Source: Chitinophagales bacterium (GTDB taxonomy: Bacteria > Bacteroidota > Bacteroidia > Chitinophagales > LD1). From it: a stretch of 64,000 bases of DNA. The translations under genes were made by a program, and so were the position numbers. Location: assembly GCA_016787045.1 (NCBI GenBank), contig JAEUVA010000021.1:1-64000 (forward strand). Direction: 5' to 3'. How positions within the stretch are numbered: position 1 is the first letter of the stretch; every line of letters begins with the position of its first letter. The notes beneath the pieces are model-generated. The model made no database searches. It was not told where the DNA came from and saw only the letters and a program-made list of their open reading frames with translations. This document shows positions 2,767-61,215 of the stretch, piece by piece.

Positions 2767-4818
2767 ATGAAACATACTTCACTATTGTTTACGCTGCTTA
2801 TACTGGCAGCGCAAGCCTCCTTTTCGCAAGGCGAAACACAAAACACAGGTGTTGGCTTGTATTGGAAACTGCTTGGCAATGCCAATACCGATACTTCTCT
2901 ACATTTTGTAGGAACCCCTGATAATAGGGCACTCACATTTAGAACGAATAATGTCAGAAGGATGACAGTTAGCAGTACCGGTAATGTAGGTATTGGTACT
3001 ATTAACCCGGCATATAAATTAGACATAGTTGCTCCGGGAAATACAATAGGACTACGGCTTCTGAGTGGCAATAACGCTGAACTTACATATATTTCATTAG
3101 GCAGAACCAATGAATATGCGCAAATTGGAGCATGTACTGCGGGCAGTTTCTTCTTAGACGCTCAAGCCGGAGATATGGCAATTAAAAATTTTAATACCGG
3201 AAAAATTTTGTTTGGCGCATCTTTCAGTGCTAATGCTCACATGTCTATCATTACGAACGGCAACGTTGGCATTAACACAGTAGCGCCTTCGCAAAGATTG
3301 CATGTGGCCGGAGCAACAACCGGTGTAAGGTTTGAAGGGCTAGGCACCGGAGGTTCTTTTATTACTACACCAAGCGCAACAACAGATAGATTACTTTTTG
3401 CAGATGCAACAGGTATATTACGGTCTATCAATAACGGTACTGCCAATCAGGTAGTAAGTATTAATGCTAGTGGAGTGCCCACATGGGCCAATGGTAATTT
3501 TTGGAGTTTAAGCGGTAATACATTGACGGGTACTGAACTTATTGGTTCTACCAATGCCCAAGCAGTTCGTTTTTTCTGTAACAACACAGAGCGAATGAGA
3601 ATAAACCCAACGGATGGGGAGGTGGTGGTAGGCGCAGTTGCTTCTCCTTATGCTGGCGATATGTTTGCCGGAGTATCTACAGCAGCTTTACCATTTGTGA
3701 TAAATGGATATACACAACACGGAGGAAGTGGCTGCTGGGGCGAAACCTTAGCCGCCAGTGCATCCGGCTTTTCTTCTGTACAGGGGGTTTATAGTGGTAG
3801 TGGGACAGGTTATGGCGTATTAGGAAATTTTAATGGAACAAGCACCTCTGTTACAAGAGCTGGTGTTTTTGGAGTATTGAGCCAACCCACCACATCCAAT
3901 TATGGTGCAGGGGTGTATGGGTACTCTTCTATAGGATCAGGTAATGGGCATATGGGTGTATTGGGTGGTTACAATGGAGCTTCATTTGGAATAGGAGTTT
4001 ATGGGTTAGGTTTTGGAGGCGGATACATAACCGGTAATTTTGATATAGCTGTAGTGGGTTGGAGAGCCAACAATGGAAACTATAGTGGATACTTTAACGG
4101 GAACCACACTATAGCCAATGGTGCAAAAGCAGCAAGCGTGGGCACCACACAAGGCAATCAGCTTTTATATTGCATGGAAAGCCCCGAAGTTTGGTTTGAA
4201 GATTTTGGCAGCAGCCAATTAGAAGGTGGTAGAAAAACAATTCATCTTGATCCGTTATTCTTAGAAACTATTGTAGTGGACAAAGACCACCCTATGCATG
4301 TATATATTCAAATGGAAGGAGAATCAGATAATGTGTATGTGATAAAAGATAAAGCATTCTTTACCGTAGTAGAGCGCAACAATGGTCAAAGTAATGCCCC
4401 GTTTAGCTGGCGCTTGGTAGCCAAGCGGGTTCACTTTCAAGATTACCGCTTTGGTAATGACCCTGTATGGGGTCCTGGCGATACCCGCCAATACATGGAG
4501 TACTCGGTGCCTCCAAAAATTGATTACAACGAAAACGTAGTATTACAGGCGGCTAAACGTGCAGCAGGTCAAAAAGCACCACTGCCTCCGGGGTTTGTTA
4601 GTTGGCAGCAAATTCAAAAAGAAATGAATGAGCGAAACAAATACAATACCCGCGAAGAACAGCCCATGCCGGTTTACCAGCCCGCAAACTCAACACCAGA
4701 CAATGATGCAGGTAGTAATAAACAATCTACACCACCGGCCAATATTAAAATTGGACACACCGGAGGTAGCTTACCTCAACAAATGAGTGGCCAACCGCAA
4801 TCACATAAGCAAGAATAG
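2767..4818 (+). CDS. Secreted fibre-like protein with GNVGIGT motifs
   Basis: 683 aa. Residues 1-20 form a signal peptide (hydrophobic core LLFTLLILAA, then SFSQ). Residues ~28-62 are a module around YWKLLGNANTDTSLHFVGTPDN that recurs right after the signal peptides of the proteins encoded at 54683-56320 and 59362-61215. Two tail-fibre-like motifs follow, GNVGIGT (residues 72-78, then NPAYKLDI) and GNVGINT (~165-171). The middle is Gly-rich and beta-predicted. Residues ~457-590 form a domain around LLYCMESPEVWFEDFG that I recall from other Bacteroidota secreted proteins without known function. The last ~90 residues are Pro/Gln-rich and low complexity. No T9SS sorting domain and no S74 domain. 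Same operon as the collagen-like gene. Inferred to be a surface or outer-membrane fibre protein. Confidence 0.8.
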   Translation: MKHTSLLFTLLILAAQASFSQGETQNTGVGLYWKLLGNANTDTSLHFVGTPDNRALTFRTNNVRRMTVSSTGNVGIGTINPAYKLDIVAPGNTIGLRLLSGNNAELTYISLGRTNEYAQIGACTAGSFFLDAQAGDMAIKNFNTGKILFGASFSANAHMSIITNGNVGINTVAPSQRLHVAGATTGVRFEGLGTGGSFITTPSATTDRLLFADATGILRSINNGTANQVVSINASGVPTWANGNFWSLSGNTLTGTELIGSTNAQAVRFFCNNTERMRINPTDGEVVVGAVASPYAGDMFAGVSTAALPFVINGYTQHGGSGCWGETLAASASGFSSVQGVYSGSGTGYGVLGNFNGTSTSVTRAGVFGVLSQPTTSNYGAGVYGYSSIGSGNGHMGVLGGYNGASFGIGVYGLGFGGGYITGNFDIAVVGWRANNGNYSGYFNGNHTIANGAKAASVGTTQGNQLLYCMESPEVWFEDFGSSQLEGGRKTIHLDPLFLETIVVDKDHPMHVYIQMEGESDNVYVIKDKAFFTVVERNNGQSNAPFSWRLVAKRVHFQDYRFGNDPVWGPGDTRQYMEYSVPPKIDYNENVVLQAAKRAAGQKAPLPPGFVSWQQIQKEMNERNKYNTREEQPMPVYQPANSTPDNDAGSNKQSTPPANIKIGHTGGSLPQQMSGQPQSHKQE

Positions 4819-54682: not shown

Positions 54683-56320
54683 CTATCTGAGTTTGAGGAG
54701 GTTTTTGATTGCTGCAATTTCAGTTTTCAGCACCTTGTTCTCTTCACTAAGCTCTTGTACCGCTTTTACCAGTGGTACCACAAATTCAGCATATGTGAGG
54801 GAGTACAATTTGTCTGGTGAGTGGGGGATATGTAAGCCACTGAAATTATAGTTGCAGTTTTTAGCCGCTTGCTCCACTTCTTGCGCAATAAAACCCGTCA
54901 TCCGCTTTTTCTCTATGTCGTATTTGCCCTCCCATTGTAACGTATCGGAAGTGCCATATACCATTTTGTTTTGTTGGTGTATATCAAACTGATAGCTTAC
55001 CGGGCGCAGTAGATTGATAAATTGCAAACCTGGAATATCTGCTTTTACATCACGCTTGATACGGGCATCACTAAAACTGCTCCAACCTACTTGCCCGCCA
55101 ATATAAAATACACTCGTATTGCCAATTTCAATGGTGTTAGAATTTGTGCCAACCCAGCCGGCTAAGTATCCGAAACTTGAAAAGTTGGAGGGGTTGAAAC
55201 CAAATGCCCCACCGGCCTGCCTGCCTACAGCCGTATTGTTCAACCCGGTTTGGTTGTTATACAATGCCTGATATCCCACCCCAACATTGCCTTGGCCTGT
55301 TGTGTTTTGGTACACCGCATACCCCCCTACTCCCGTATTGCCAGCGCCAGTTGTGTTTAAGTGCATAGCTTGATTACCTATTGAGGAGTTATCAGCGCCA
55401 GAGGTATTACTATACATAGCGTAGTAGCCAATACCTACATTACCCAACCCATTTATGTTTTGATACATGGTATTTCTGCCAATGGCTACATTGGCCCAGC
55501 CGTTTTGGTTGCTAAACATTACCTCGTTGCCAATAGCTACATTTTCAAATCCGGTATTGTTGTTGAAAAGACACATATAACCCAAAGCCGCGTTTCTGCT
55601 ACCCGATGTATTGGAGTACAATGTGTTTACTCCGCAAGCAGTATTGAAATTTCCGTTTGAGTTAGCGTACAGCGCTTGTGTGCCTAATGCGGTGTTTTCG
55701 TTGCCGGTAGTATTTGAGCCCAAACTTTGATGCCCAATGGCCGTATTGTAATTGCCGGTAGTGTTGTATAGCATAGAAAAATGCCCCATGGCATTATTCC
55801 AATTACCGGTGGTGTTTAGCCCCAAAGCAGAGTATCCTACACCTACGTTAGATTCTCCACTGTTGTTTTGCAATACATAGCTGCCCACAGCAACATTGCC
55901 ATTAGCTGCGGTGTTATTGCGCAAAGCATGAAAACCTACGGCTGTGTTGTTAGCACCTGAGGTATTGGCCCGAAGTGTATTTGTGCCAATGGCCGTGTTG
56001 TAAAATCCATCGGTATTGCTAGACATTGATTTGTACCCCATAGAAGTATTAGCATTACCCGTAACTATCATTTCGCCACTTCTGTAGCCCAAAAATGTAT
56101 TGAACAAGAAGGAGTCGATTAACCCGGCATGCGTGTTGTTGATTTTAAATTTTAGCGAAACATTATCGGTTGTACCAATAAAATGCTGTGTGGCATCAGT
56201 ACCTGAGTTTCCTTTAATTTTCCAATAAGGAGTCACCGGATTATGTGATTCAACTTGCGCCCATATTGTGGAAGCATGTAATGTGTGTACACTAAGTAAA
56301 AGAAGATAAATACGTTTCAT
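54683..56320 (-). CDS. Exported YadA-head-like fibre with C-terminal peptidase S74 chaperone domain
   Basis: 545 aa from the ATG at 56320 (KRIYLLLLSVHTLHAS); a frame start seven codons upstream is less suitable. Signal peptide to about residue 21, then the shared module PYWKIKGNSGT and FIGTTDNVSLKFKINN (about 30-62). Residues ~80-375 hold about 17 repeats of 17 residues on the pattern NTTGNYNTAIGHQSL, the left-handed trimeric head repeat of YadA-type adhesins. The C-terminus (417-545) is an S74 domain: SDARIKRDV with S417 as the probable self-cleavage Ser, RPVSYQFD, GFIAQEVEQ, SLTYAEFVVPLVKAVQEL and a final coiled coil. Predicted to trimerise and self-cleave. No T9SS signal. Divergent from the helical protein at 56402. 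Confidence 0.88.
   Translation of the reverse strand: MKRIYLLLLSVHTLHASTIWAQVESHNPVTPYWKIKGNSGTDATQHFIGTTDNVSLKFKINNTHAGLIDSFLFNTFLGYRSGEMIVTGNANTSMGYKSMSSNTDGFYNTAIGTNTLRANTSGANNTAVGFHALRNNTAANGNVAVGSYVLQNNSGESNVGVGYSALGLNTTGNWNNAMGHFSMLYNTTGNYNTAIGHQSLGSNTTGNENTALGTQALYANSNGNFNTACGVNTLYSNTSGSRNAALGYMCLFNNNTGFENVAIGNEVMFSNQNGWANVAIGRNTMYQNINGLGNVGIGYYAMYSNTSGADNSSIGNQAMHLNTTGAGNTGVGGYAVYQNTTGQGNVGVGYQALYNNQTGLNNTAVGRQAGGAFGFNPSNFSSFGYLAGWVGTNSNTIEIGNTSVFYIGGQVGWSSFSDARIKRDVKADIPGLQFINLLRPVSYQFDIHQQNKMVYGTSDTLQWEGKYDIEKKRMTGFIAQEVEQAAKNCNYNFSGLHIPHSPDKLYSLTYAEFVVPLVKAVQELSEENKVLKTEIAAIKNLLKLR
55195..56080 (-). repeat. About 17 tandem 51-bp units encoding head repeats
   Basis: Each unit encodes 17 residues of form N-T/S-x-G-x-x-N-T/V-A-x-G-x-x-x-L-x-x. 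Amino-acid identity is confined to the turn and core positions and DNA identity between units is modest, so this is an old protein repeat rather than a recent tandem expansion, unlike the collagen array at the left end. Confidence 0.8.
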
Positions 56321-56350
56321 ACAAGCGTAAAAAAGGAGCAATCAGTACGT

Positions 56351-58717: not shown

Positions 58718-59302
58718 ATGGATACATTACTCCAAAAAGTACAATCTCGGTTTCCTTATGTTACAGCCGAAAAATTGGCCGATATACTGGCTATGGGAGA
58801 AGTGGTGGTGGTTCAACCCGGAGAAATTTTATTTAAAGAAGGCGTAAACAACGCCCGTGCCGCTATTGTACTAGAGGGCATATTGCGCAATTACACCTAC
58901 AACTCAAAAGGCGAAGAAATTACTACCCTATTGGTAGATGAACTACGAGCAGCGGCACCGTACTCTAATATTTTTTTAAACAAACCGGCCACCGAAACTA
59001 CCGAAGCCGTGGAGCAAAGTTTGGTGTTCTTGTTTGTTTTTCCGGAGGTTCAACAAAAAATGGAACAAGATTTAGTGCTGTTGCGGCTCTACAAAGATTT
59101 AGTGCAAGACGCATTGATTAACTCTATACAACGCATAGAAGATTTTACCCGACTCAACCCGGTGCAGCGCTACGAGCGGCTTTTGCAAGATCGGCCTACA
59201 CTATTGGATAGAGTACCACTCAAATTTTTGGCCTCTTACCTCGGCATTACCGCAGTTTCGCTTTCCCGCATACGTAAGCGCATCAGCAAAAGCAGAAATT
59301 AA
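58718..59302 (+). CDS. Crp/Fnr-family transcriptional regulator
   Basis: 194 aa from the ATG at 58718 (DTLLQKVQSRFPYV); a GTG at 58679 would add 13 residues. N-terminal cyclic-nucleotide-binding-like domain (about 10-120: VVVQPGEILFKEG, AAIVLEGILRNYTYNSKGEE) and a C-terminal winged helix-turn-helix (VPLKFLASYLGITAVSLSRI). The phosphate-binding Arg-rich loop of true cAMP receptors is absent (LRAAAPYSNIFLNKPATE instead), so it probably does not bind cAMP, as is common for this subfamily in Bacteroidota. Lies 59 nt upstream of the S74 fibre gene and is its obvious candidate regulator. Confidence 0.9.
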   Translation: MDTLLQKVQSRFPYVTAEKLADILAMGEVVVVQPGEILFKEGVNNARAAIVLEGILRNYTYNSKGEEITTLLVDELRAAAPYSNIFLNKPATETTEAVEQSLVFLFVFPEVQQKMEQDLVLLRLYKDLVQDALINSIQRIEDFTRLNPVQRYERLLQDRPTLLDRVPLKFLASYLGITAVSLSRIRKRISKSRN

Positions 59303-59334
59303 CTTTTGTAAAGTGTTGCCGGTGGGTCATCACT

Positions 59335-59355
59335 TAGGTTTGTGCAGCAAACCTA
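59335..59355 (+). promoter_or_regulatory. Perfect inverted repeat overlapping a -7 box before the S74 fibre gene
   Basis: TAGGTTTG-N5-CAAACCTA, eight bases pairing on each side, ending 6 nt before the ATG at 59362. The left arm (59335-59342) is itself a full TAnnTTTG box and the right arm is the same box on the minus strand. It may be an operator for the adjacent Crp-like protein, a bidirectional promoter element, or an RNA hairpin in the leader. Confidence 0.5.
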
Positions 59356-59361
59356 TTCTCA

Positions 59362-61215
59362 ATGTACTATAACGCATTTTTAGTTTTTAGTTTTTGGATA
59401 GCCACACTATCAGCTTTTTCTCAAGCAGAAACCAATAACCCTGTATTGCCATTTTGGACCGTAAAGGGCAATAGCGGCACTACACCGGGCACTAATTTTA
59501 TAGGCACTACCGATGCGAAAAAATTGATTTTTAAAGTCAACAATCAGCAAGCCGGTTTGATTGATTACACTTCCCCTTACAATACCACTTTGGGCTATCA
59601 GGCATTGGTGGCTAACACTACCGGCTACAGCAATGCTGCCTTCGGATATTTGGCATTAGCCGCCAATACTACCGGTTATGACAACATGGCTATTGGAGAC
59701 AGTACCTTGTCTTCAAACACCACTGGATACCACAATGTTGCTTTGGGTACCTTAGCTCTCTACTCTAATACTACCGGAGTTGGCAACACCGCTATTGGTT
59801 ATGCCGCCCTGCAAGATAACTCAGGTTCAACCTCCAGCTTAAATACAGCCGTGGGCGACTATTCTTTAACCAACAATACAACAGGTTTTTTCAATACTAT
59901 GGTAGGTGGACTCTCTGGCTATAGAAACACCACCGCCAGGTATAACACCGGAATAGGATATAGGGCTTCTTACACCAATTTAACGGGCGAAGGGAATGTA
60001 GCTATTGGCCACTACGCGCTTAACTCCAACCTTGTGGGTAGAAATGTAGCTATTGGTACAGAGGCCTTGGCAGATGCCCAACTCTCCTCACAAAACGTGG
60101 CAATAGGATATTTTGCCCTCCATAATTTATCCGGCTTTCCGGCAAACACCGTATCAGGTAACGTAGCCGTAGGGGCTTATTCACTGTATTCCGCCAATTA
60201 TGCAGTGGCCACCTATCCCATACACAATACAGCCATAGGCGACAGCTCCTTGCGGCTGAATACCTTTGGTTGGGGAAATACTGCCTTAGGGAAAAACGCC
60301 CTTTTGTTTAACACCGGAGGCACAAAAAATACCGCTATTGGTTACAATGCCGATGTAAGCAACTCTTTCCTTACCAATGCCACGGCCATTGGCTACAATG
60401 CCAAAGTAAACCAGAGCAACGCTATTGTATTGGGCGCTACAGGCACAGACCAAGTAACCGTAGGCATTGGCACTACTACGCCCACCTATCCGCTAACCGT
60501 CATTAGCACGGTAAACGGAACATTTGGCCCTTATGGCTACTTAACTACTACAGGCGCAGCCACATTTGCCGGAAGCAATTCTATACCGGTTTCTATTTGG
60601 GCATCGGGCAGAGTACTGGCTACAGAGTTTGATGCATATAGCGATGCACGCATAAAAAACATTATCAATATTTCGGATGGTGTAGTTGATTTAAACACTA
60701 TAGCCCAAATTCAGATAACCAACTATCAATACATAGATACCATTAGTAAAGGAAACAGAGTGTCTAAGAAGGTAATAGCGCAGCAAGTAGAAGGAGTGTA
60801 CCCCAGTGCAGTATCAAAAATTACGGACGTTATACCGGATATTTATCAGCTAGCAGAGATGCACAACGGAAAGGTGAAGTTGAAAAATAATTTGCAACCG
60901 GGCGAAAAAGTAAAACTGATTTTTGCCGATCAATCTCAAGTATATACTGTGCTTAGTGCCAATGAAAAAGAGTTTGAAGTAAATGAGGAAAAGGAAGGAA
61001 GCGTATTTGTTTTTGGAAGAGAAGTAAACGACTTTAGGGTAGTTGATTACGAAGCATTAGCCATGCTCAACATCTCAGCCACACAGCAACTGCTAAAAAT
61101 GATTATACAGCAACAAAAAGATATTGAAAAAATGCGCGCGCAATGGAGCGCTCTTCAAAATGAAGTGGAAGAAATAAAGCAGCAACTTTTGCTCAAAAGT
61201 GCAAATACGGATTAA
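59362..61215 (+). CDS. Exported YadA-head-like fibre with a second-type S74 chaperone domain
   Basis: 617 aa. Signal peptide (FLVFSFWIATLSAFSQ), then the shared module PFWTVKGNSGT and FIGTTDAKKLIFKVNNQQAG. Residues ~70-350 are irregular 17-residue head repeats (NTTGYDNMAIGDSTL, NTTGVGNTAIGYAAL), then VTVGIGTTTPTYPLTV. The S74 domain begins at S427 (SDARIKNII) and runs NYQYIDTI, KKVIAQQVEGVYPSAVS, DVIPDIYQLAE. Unlike the protein at 54683, it then contains a ~60-residue insertion (KVKLIFADQSQVYTV, VFVFGREVNDF) before VVDYEALAMLNISATQQL and a long terminal coiled coil. This insertion-bearing form resembles the S74 domains of MRF-like and viral proteins. Predicted trimer, self-cleaving. Directly downstream of the crp-like gene. 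Confidence 0.88.
   Translation: MYYNAFLVFSFWIATLSAFSQAETNNPVLPFWTVKGNSGTTPGTNFIGTTDAKKLIFKVNNQQAGLIDYTSPYNTTLGYQALVANTTGYSNAAFGYLALAANTTGYDNMAIGDSTLSSNTTGYHNVALGTLALYSNTTGVGNTAIGYAALQDNSGSTSSLNTAVGDYSLTNNTTGFFNTMVGGLSGYRNTTARYNTGIGYRASYTNLTGEGNVAIGHYALNSNLVGRNVAIGTEALADAQLSSQNVAIGYFALHNLSGFPANTVSGNVAVGAYSLYSANYAVATYPIHNTAIGDSSLRLNTFGWGNTALGKNALLFNTGGTKNTAIGYNADVSNSFLTNATAIGYNAKVNQSNAIVLGATGTDQVTVGIGTTTPTYPLTVISTVNGTFGPYGYLTTTGAATFAGSNSIPVSIWASGRVLATEFDAYSDARIKNIINISDGVVDLNTIAQIQITNYQYIDTISKGNRVSKKVIAQQVEGVYPSAVSKITDVIPDIYQLAEMHNGKVKLKNNLQPGEKVKLIFADQSQVYTVLSANEKEFEVNEEKEGSVFVFGREVNDFRVVDYEALAMLNISATQQLLKMIIQQQKDIEKMRAQWSALQNEVEEIKQQLLLKSANTD

Follow-up and report, generated by a model that had tools for sequence, protein, structure and literature searches.

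The 64,000-nt stretch of DNA analyzed here (the window) carries a gene for a Crp-like regulator and, on the same strand, a gene for a surface or fibre-like protein, with a perfect inverted repeat between them (Table 1). The initial annotation had placed a perfect 8+8 repeat behind the crp-like gene, ending 6 nt short of the fibre-like ATG at 59362, and both its sequence and coordinates proved exact and its position was confirmed: the arms (59335-59342 and 59348-59355) enclose the bases TGCAG (59343-59347), and 6 nt follow before the ATG. In what follows, G-numbers denote genomes, with G000 the genome holding the dyad, and L-numbers denote Crp-family loci.

The regulator has a Crp-type, cNMP-binding-type N-terminal domain (PF00027, 28.1 bits at a cut-off of 27.5), and its closest solved structure is PDB 3dn7 (E 2.5e-9, aligned over residues 10-188); the Pfam search of the regulator gave no HTH match. 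Its ATG start is backed by alignment, and its SLSRIRKR segment is invariant in nine relatives. The nearest orthologs, at 41-49% identity, are from three genomes of another genus in the same family (G020, G023, G027) and two of the same genus (G013, G010); the same five, as MAGs labelled Bacteroidetes, were the best five relatives in a GTDB search, and no regulator relative was found in the viral contigs searched.

The N-terminus of the fibre-like protein (59362-59424, MYYNAFLVFSFWIATLSAFSQ) is signal-peptide-like and lacks the usual basic residues. A second Peptidase_S74 surface protein, encoded on the minus strand (54683-56341), resembles it past the signal peptide. In G013 and G010, the gene behind crp is likewise of surface type by eye, with a signal-peptide-like start and collagen-like repeats.

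Table 1. Features of the crp-fibre locus and of related loci.
Feature	Position	Strand	Basis or remark
Crp-like regulator gene, 194 aa, stop TAA at 59300-59302	58718-59302	+	PF00027, 3dn7, orthologs
Conserved block AATTAACTTTTGTAAAGTG	59297-59315	+	Putative operator of the Crp-like protein; 15/19 columns invariant in six orthologs
Core near-palindrome TTAAC-TTTT-GTAAA, centre 59305/59306	59299-59312	+	Overlaps the crp stop codon
8+8 dyad TAGGTTTG-TGCAG-CAAACCTA	59335-59355	.	Sequence read directly
Left dyad arm, apparent -7 promoter box TAGGTTTG	59335-59342	+	Conserved at fixed spacing in 6/6 orthologs
Predicted transcription start, G	59347	+	TAnnTTTG -12/-5 rule applied to the sequence
Predicted 15-nt leader of the surface-protein mRNA	59347-59361	+	Leaders of 13-18 nt at 13/22 crp-adjacent sites
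Right dyad arm CAAACCTA	59348-59355	+	Within the predicted leader
Surface/fibre-like gene, 617 aa, signal-peptide-like start, Peptidase_S74 chaperone domain PF13884	59362-61215	+	Predicted target
10+10 inverted repeat before a secreted-looking collagen-like protein (G013, G010)	L065 ~3109-3193; L064 ~3108-3190
Nine-codon ORF	L063 ~3148-3177; L066 ~3147-3176; L067 ~3240-3269, ~3420-3449

Frequency of the dyad in the window and the genome

Taken by itself, the dyad is weak and within chance expectation; its position is the notable part. Perfect 8+8 dyads with a loop length between 3 and 20 nt number 47 in the window (37 distinct centres), and ten order-2 shuffles of it gave 23-48, with a mean of 32.6. 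The search for further copies that had been suggested as a check returned a single exact copy in 3.62 Mb, and the dyad was rejected as a recurrent genomic motif. Allowing up to three mismatches, the pattern has one occurrence versus 0.49 expected. Opposed TAnnTTTG/CAAAnnTA pairs 3-20 nt apart were also considered as a genome-wide class and rejected, as their number (21) fell below that of the reversed control pattern (29). Among the 62 TAnnTTTG boxes in the window, both strands counted, two have an exact complement 3-27 nt downstream, and both are the dyad, read from each strand. Shuffling the 15-nt leader of G000 gave p = 0.0005 for the box complement, at a locus that was picked because of its dyad.

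Conserved islands behind crp-type genes

Alignment of the region behind crp in the six close orthologs (G000, G020, G023, G027, G013, and G010) reveals two conserved islands, AATTA.C.TT.GT.AAGTG and then TA..TTTG, across a variable, non-conserved spacer, and just two single invariant columns outside both. The first island lies at the crp stop codon or shortly after it in all six. The second starts exactly 36 bases past the start of the palindrome 14-mer in 6/6, the boxes reading TAGGTTTG, TAGCTTTG, TAGTTTTG, TATCTTTG, and, in two cases, TACTTTTG. Sequence, conservation, and fixed spacing are thus directly observed here. Because this second island coincides with the left arm of the dyad, we read that arm as a genuine-looking -7 box. 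The earlier proposal that both arms are opposed -7 boxes holds for the letters of both and, as a promoter element, for the left arm; the right arm is not conserved as a -7 box. In G020, G023, and G027, the bases equivalent to this arm form a shared AAACCYA-like leader element ahead of the ATG, and they do not complement the -7 box.

The candidate operator of G000 has two-fold symmetry in a 5-N4-5 layout at 4/5 pairs, with perfect versions in relatives. The operator of the Crp-like protein most likely lies at this conserved palindrome, 30 bp upstream of the dyad. In none of the six orthologs do the 300 bases preceding the crp start contain a 14-mer scoring at least 9/10, and autoregulation was rejected as a candidate.

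According to the available parts of the sources, the Bacteroidota sigma-ABfr promoter combines a -33 TTTG with a -7 TAnnTTTG (PMC6847099, PMC7366714). The conserved TAGGTTTG matches the -7 element as described there, whereas the -33 TTTG is absent; the nearest TTTG (59305-59308) lies 26 nt before the -7 box, inside the candidate operator at -42 to -39. A missing -33 element might be anticipated at a promoter where an activator takes its place. Scans for sigma-70-type promoters and for terminators found nothing above chance near the site; the terminator scan also failed to flag hairpins that were read by eye in L063 and L066.

Beyond the close orthologs, 88 Crp-family loci were entered, of which 84 were kept after removal of same-sequence repeats; loci whose matches were weak or largely incomplete, or whose hosts were improbable (L019, L100, L109, L128-L139), had been passed over, while L063-L067, L070, and L071 were omitted as copies of loci already included. 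A 14-mer matching TTAWC-N4-GWTAA at 8/10 or better is present at 53/84 loci, and an exact TAnnTTTG follows in 15 cases, counted 14-74 bases from the start of the 14-mer, with 13 of the boxes at exactly 36. L007 is not among the 13, another 14-mer having scored there, and its real site, TTATCTTTTGTAAA, has the box TATCTTTG at 36. The consensus was derived from some of the loci scored with it, and therefore the test was repeated without any sequence model, a locus qualifying if it had a strong inverted repeat of whatever sequence close to the crp stop. Seventeen of the 84 loci qualify, G000 itself being below the threshold, and TTTG was found 14 times at +10 to +69 from the repeat centre, +33 accounting for six of these and +34 for one; nothing fell at +33 in three control regions or for two control motifs. 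As the loci are related, these counts overstate their independence.

In 60 genomes, the composite pattern had 17 matches versus 6 in the control, and 13 of the 17, including all 6 exact ones, lie at the 3' end of a Crp-family gene or up to 120 bases behind it. Five of these 13 were unused in the design of the pattern (G007, G047, G040, and second sites in G023 and G027). The same 60 genomes hold 134 Crp-type matches (table sum), so that the strict composite marks a minority. The G000-specific composite has a single exact match in its own genome, the site itself; a looser version (up to two mismatches) elsewhere in that genome was set aside as looking like chance, with 28 places versus 34 in the control. 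The literature searches, judged mostly from their listings, showed no published description of the candidate operator or its arrangement.

Individual loci carry palindromes of their own. Among the loci of the sequence-independent test, L083, L085, and L089 (Flavihumibacter or a relative) have TTATC-N4-GATAA, and L108 (Flavobacterium) has TTGAT-N4-ATCAA behind the crp-type stop; in these four, L115, and L017, the palindromes, including an ACTTGTC-TTAAGACAAGT-like one, are equally far from a box reading TTTG or TTCG, as judged partly by eye. This suggests that Crp-family operators could be read off systematically.

The genes behind the composite are diverse. Elsewhere it precedes fatty-acid hydroxylases, an MFS transporter, a metallo-beta-lactamase-fold protein (metallo-hydrolase), a polyketide-cyclase-like protein, and DUF4260; thus, different regulator-neighbour pairs with unrelated targets share one layout in several Bacteroidota families. 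Nine codons, M[LF]D[DSA]xYNGN-stop, make up the first frame after the promoter in G020, G023, and G027, with two tandem copies in G027. This pattern occurs at 4 places in 3/396 genomes of the order, all at this crp-adjacent locus, and had no matches in viral contigs. Terminator-like hairpins follow the nine-codon ORF by eye, and an Rfam search of the three loci carrying it gave no match up to E = 1. The ORF is possibly a Crp-controlled nanopeptide or small RNA. More speculatively, the MYYN start of the fibre-like protein is placed where the relatives have this ORF ending in YNGN.

Predicted start site and alternative roles of the dyad

In Flavobacterium psychrophilum, TAnnTTTG lies at -12 to -5, as stated in the part of PMC9723704 available. 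Applying this rule places the palindrome centre at -41.5 from the predicted start, the position of a class II Crp/Fnr activator; for E. coli, an excerpt of PMC3688515 puts the site at -41.5 +/- 4 in 19 of 23 FNR-activated promoters whose start is known. The value of -41.5 here follows from the predicted start alone, and the spacing to the -7 box is identical in the six orthologs. At 13 of 22 crp-adjacent sites, which were selected for showing the composite, an ATG lies 13-18 nt past the predicted start, the ATGs counted being those that open the nine-codon ORF or one of 60 codons or more. At the remaining nine, it lies at 6, 30, 37, 40, 47, 70, 72, 88, and 197 nt; in two of these, an ATG belonging to the expected protein or else to a short frame was seen by eye at 15 (L053) and 18 (L058).

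The dyad had also been suggested to form a leader hairpin controlling translation. For the gene's own mRNA this is not supported, since the predicted transcript starts inside the dyad loop without the left arm and its leader therefore cannot form the hairpin; the fold of 59347-59420 is unremarkable (z -0.57). Read-through RNA from crp could form a hairpin: folded in isolation, the dyad gives a 9-bp stem with one G-U pair and a 3-nt loop (-9.7 kcal/mol). Read-through transcripts of the IS10 transposase and T4 lysozyme genes are known to undergo fold-back inhibition, in which, as is weakly suggested here, a hairpin on the longer RNA alone would hide the start region; unlike in those cases, the left arm here would be the -7 box itself. 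The -7 region of crp read-through RNA would pair with the bases before the ATG and block translation, whereas promoter-started RNA, lacking the left arm, would be freely translated, so that the hairpin would act in addition to a class II promoter. Since a transcript never contains the -7 box from which it was started, the hairpin would mark read-through RNA only.

Several observations speak for such a fold-back insulator. In G000, G013, and G010, the ATG follows 6, 1, and 1 nt after the end of an exact 8/8 complement of the -7 box (leader-shuffle p 0.0005, 0.0045, and 0.0015, respectively), even though the boxes differ (TAGGTTTG vs. TACTTTTG), the two changed positions being matched on the other arm. 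The G000 stem reaches the -9.7 kcal/mol given above, and the terminator scan found no terminator-like site between crp and the fibre-like gene. In G013 and G010, the repeat with its flanks is 10+10, ATACTTTTGT / ACAAAAGTAT, and joins the -7 box to the pre-ATG bases; a 21-base element is unique to these leaders and is no general surface-gene leader. By eye, the G013 leader has a further hairpin between the arms. Against this, none of the other 19 crp-adjacent sites examined, G020, G023, and G027 among them, has the complement, and a pairing-energy test (leaving out L017 for a wrong-strand match, L010 for a one-base shift in register, and L083, L085, and L089 for an improbable 3-nt leader) was weaker, with p 0.042 for G013 and 0.024 for G010 and near-uniform values elsewhere. 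Moreover, the G013 and G010 leaders are homologous and count once, G000 was chosen for its dyad, and the loops are very unequal (5 nt vs. more than 60 nt). We consider the fold-back insulator rather unlikely, and keep it as the leading rival because exact complements in same-genus orthologs argue against simple coincidence. Should it nevertheless operate, the surface protein would be made solely from the Crp-activated promoter, and this genus would have a built-in translational insulator.

The other two roles proposed for the dyad fare worse. A second, opposed promoter, with the right arm as its -7 box, would send an antisense RNA into the 3' end of crp; this arm reads TAGGTTTG on the minus strand, and the pre-ATG element of G013 and G010 likewise reads as an opposed TAnnTTTG, TACTTTTG. 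The three other-genus orthologs, however, read TGGGTTTA, GGGTTTTA, and TGGGTTTA there on the minus strand by eye and lack TAnnTTTG, the genome has no excess of opposed boxes (21 vs. 29 in the control), and no operator or -33-like element was seen by eye at promoter spacing on the minus strand; the dual promoter suggested initially is thus not borne out, and we regard it as very improbable. Perfect symmetry and overlap with the -7 box, a classic position for a repressor, would suit the dyad as an operator, bound over the -7 box by a repressor that could be the Crp-like protein or some other dimeric regulator. It is, however, absent from 3/6 close orthologs, and a better-conserved palindrome lies upstream, at 59299-59312. 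The arms in G013 and G010 are more than 60 nt apart, which excludes a single dimer site. Rather than a conserved symmetric site of fixed size, there is an 8/8 complement at 3/22 crp-adjacent sites with differing arm spacing. The exact dyad sequence is indeed missing upstream of the orthologous genes, which the initial annotation had named as a refuting observation, although a version of different sequence is present in G013 and G010. We give an operator role for the dyad hardly any credence.

A putative class II promoter serving the next gene

The reading that we consider well favored is that the site is a class II promoter activated by the Crp-like protein encoded directly upstream, which thereby probably switches on its downstream neighbour. 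A dimer of this protein would bind the near-palindrome overlapping the stop codon of its own gene and, centred at -41.5 under the -12/-5 rule quoted above, would contact the RNA polymerase that occupies the -7 box TAGGTTTG together with the housekeeping sigma factor of Bacteroidota, and would take the place of the missing -33 element. Transcription would begin near 59347, and the fibre-like gene would be expressed behind the 15-nt leader. The left arm would then be the -7 box and the right arm a part of the leader, most likely dispensable for promoter activity. We infer the start site, binding by the Crp-like protein, and activation rather than repression from the sequence, the term "activator" resting on the position of the palindrome. 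The perfect inverted repeat appears mostly incidental; the same-genus relatives hint at a fold-back hairpin too, and the exact -7 box complement before the ATG in G000, G013, and G010 is unexplained by the class II model.

The arrangement resembles the class II CRP/FNR promoters of E. coli, which, in the available part of PMC3688515, have an FNR box TTGAT-N4-ATCAA near -41.5: a 5-N4-5 inverted repeat is found here as well, its centre is at -41.5 from the predicted start, and the regulator is of the Crp/Fnr superfamily. The E. coli FNR-type sequence itself also occurs in Flavobacterium L108 and L115 (L115 by eye), with TTTG at the same spacing. Unlike in E. coli, the half-site is TTAAC/TTATC, the core element is a Bacteroidota -7 box rather than a -10, and the operator, placed across the stop codon of its own regulator gene, serves the gene that follows. 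In Bacteroides thetaiotaomicron, the Crp-family regulator HcpR is likewise encoded upstream of a gene that depends on it, hcp (PMC13370916, available in part); HcpR is described there as a haem-binding nitrosative-stress regulator, and the comparison here covers regulator family and gene order.

Overall, a striking inverted repeat is replaced by a base-resolved prediction, that of a class II operator located at or closely behind the regulator's own stop codon and serving the next gene. For Crp-family regulators of unknown function, this layout offers a predicted operator, start site, and target, and it suggests how Crp/Fnr proteins may work with a -7-type promoter.
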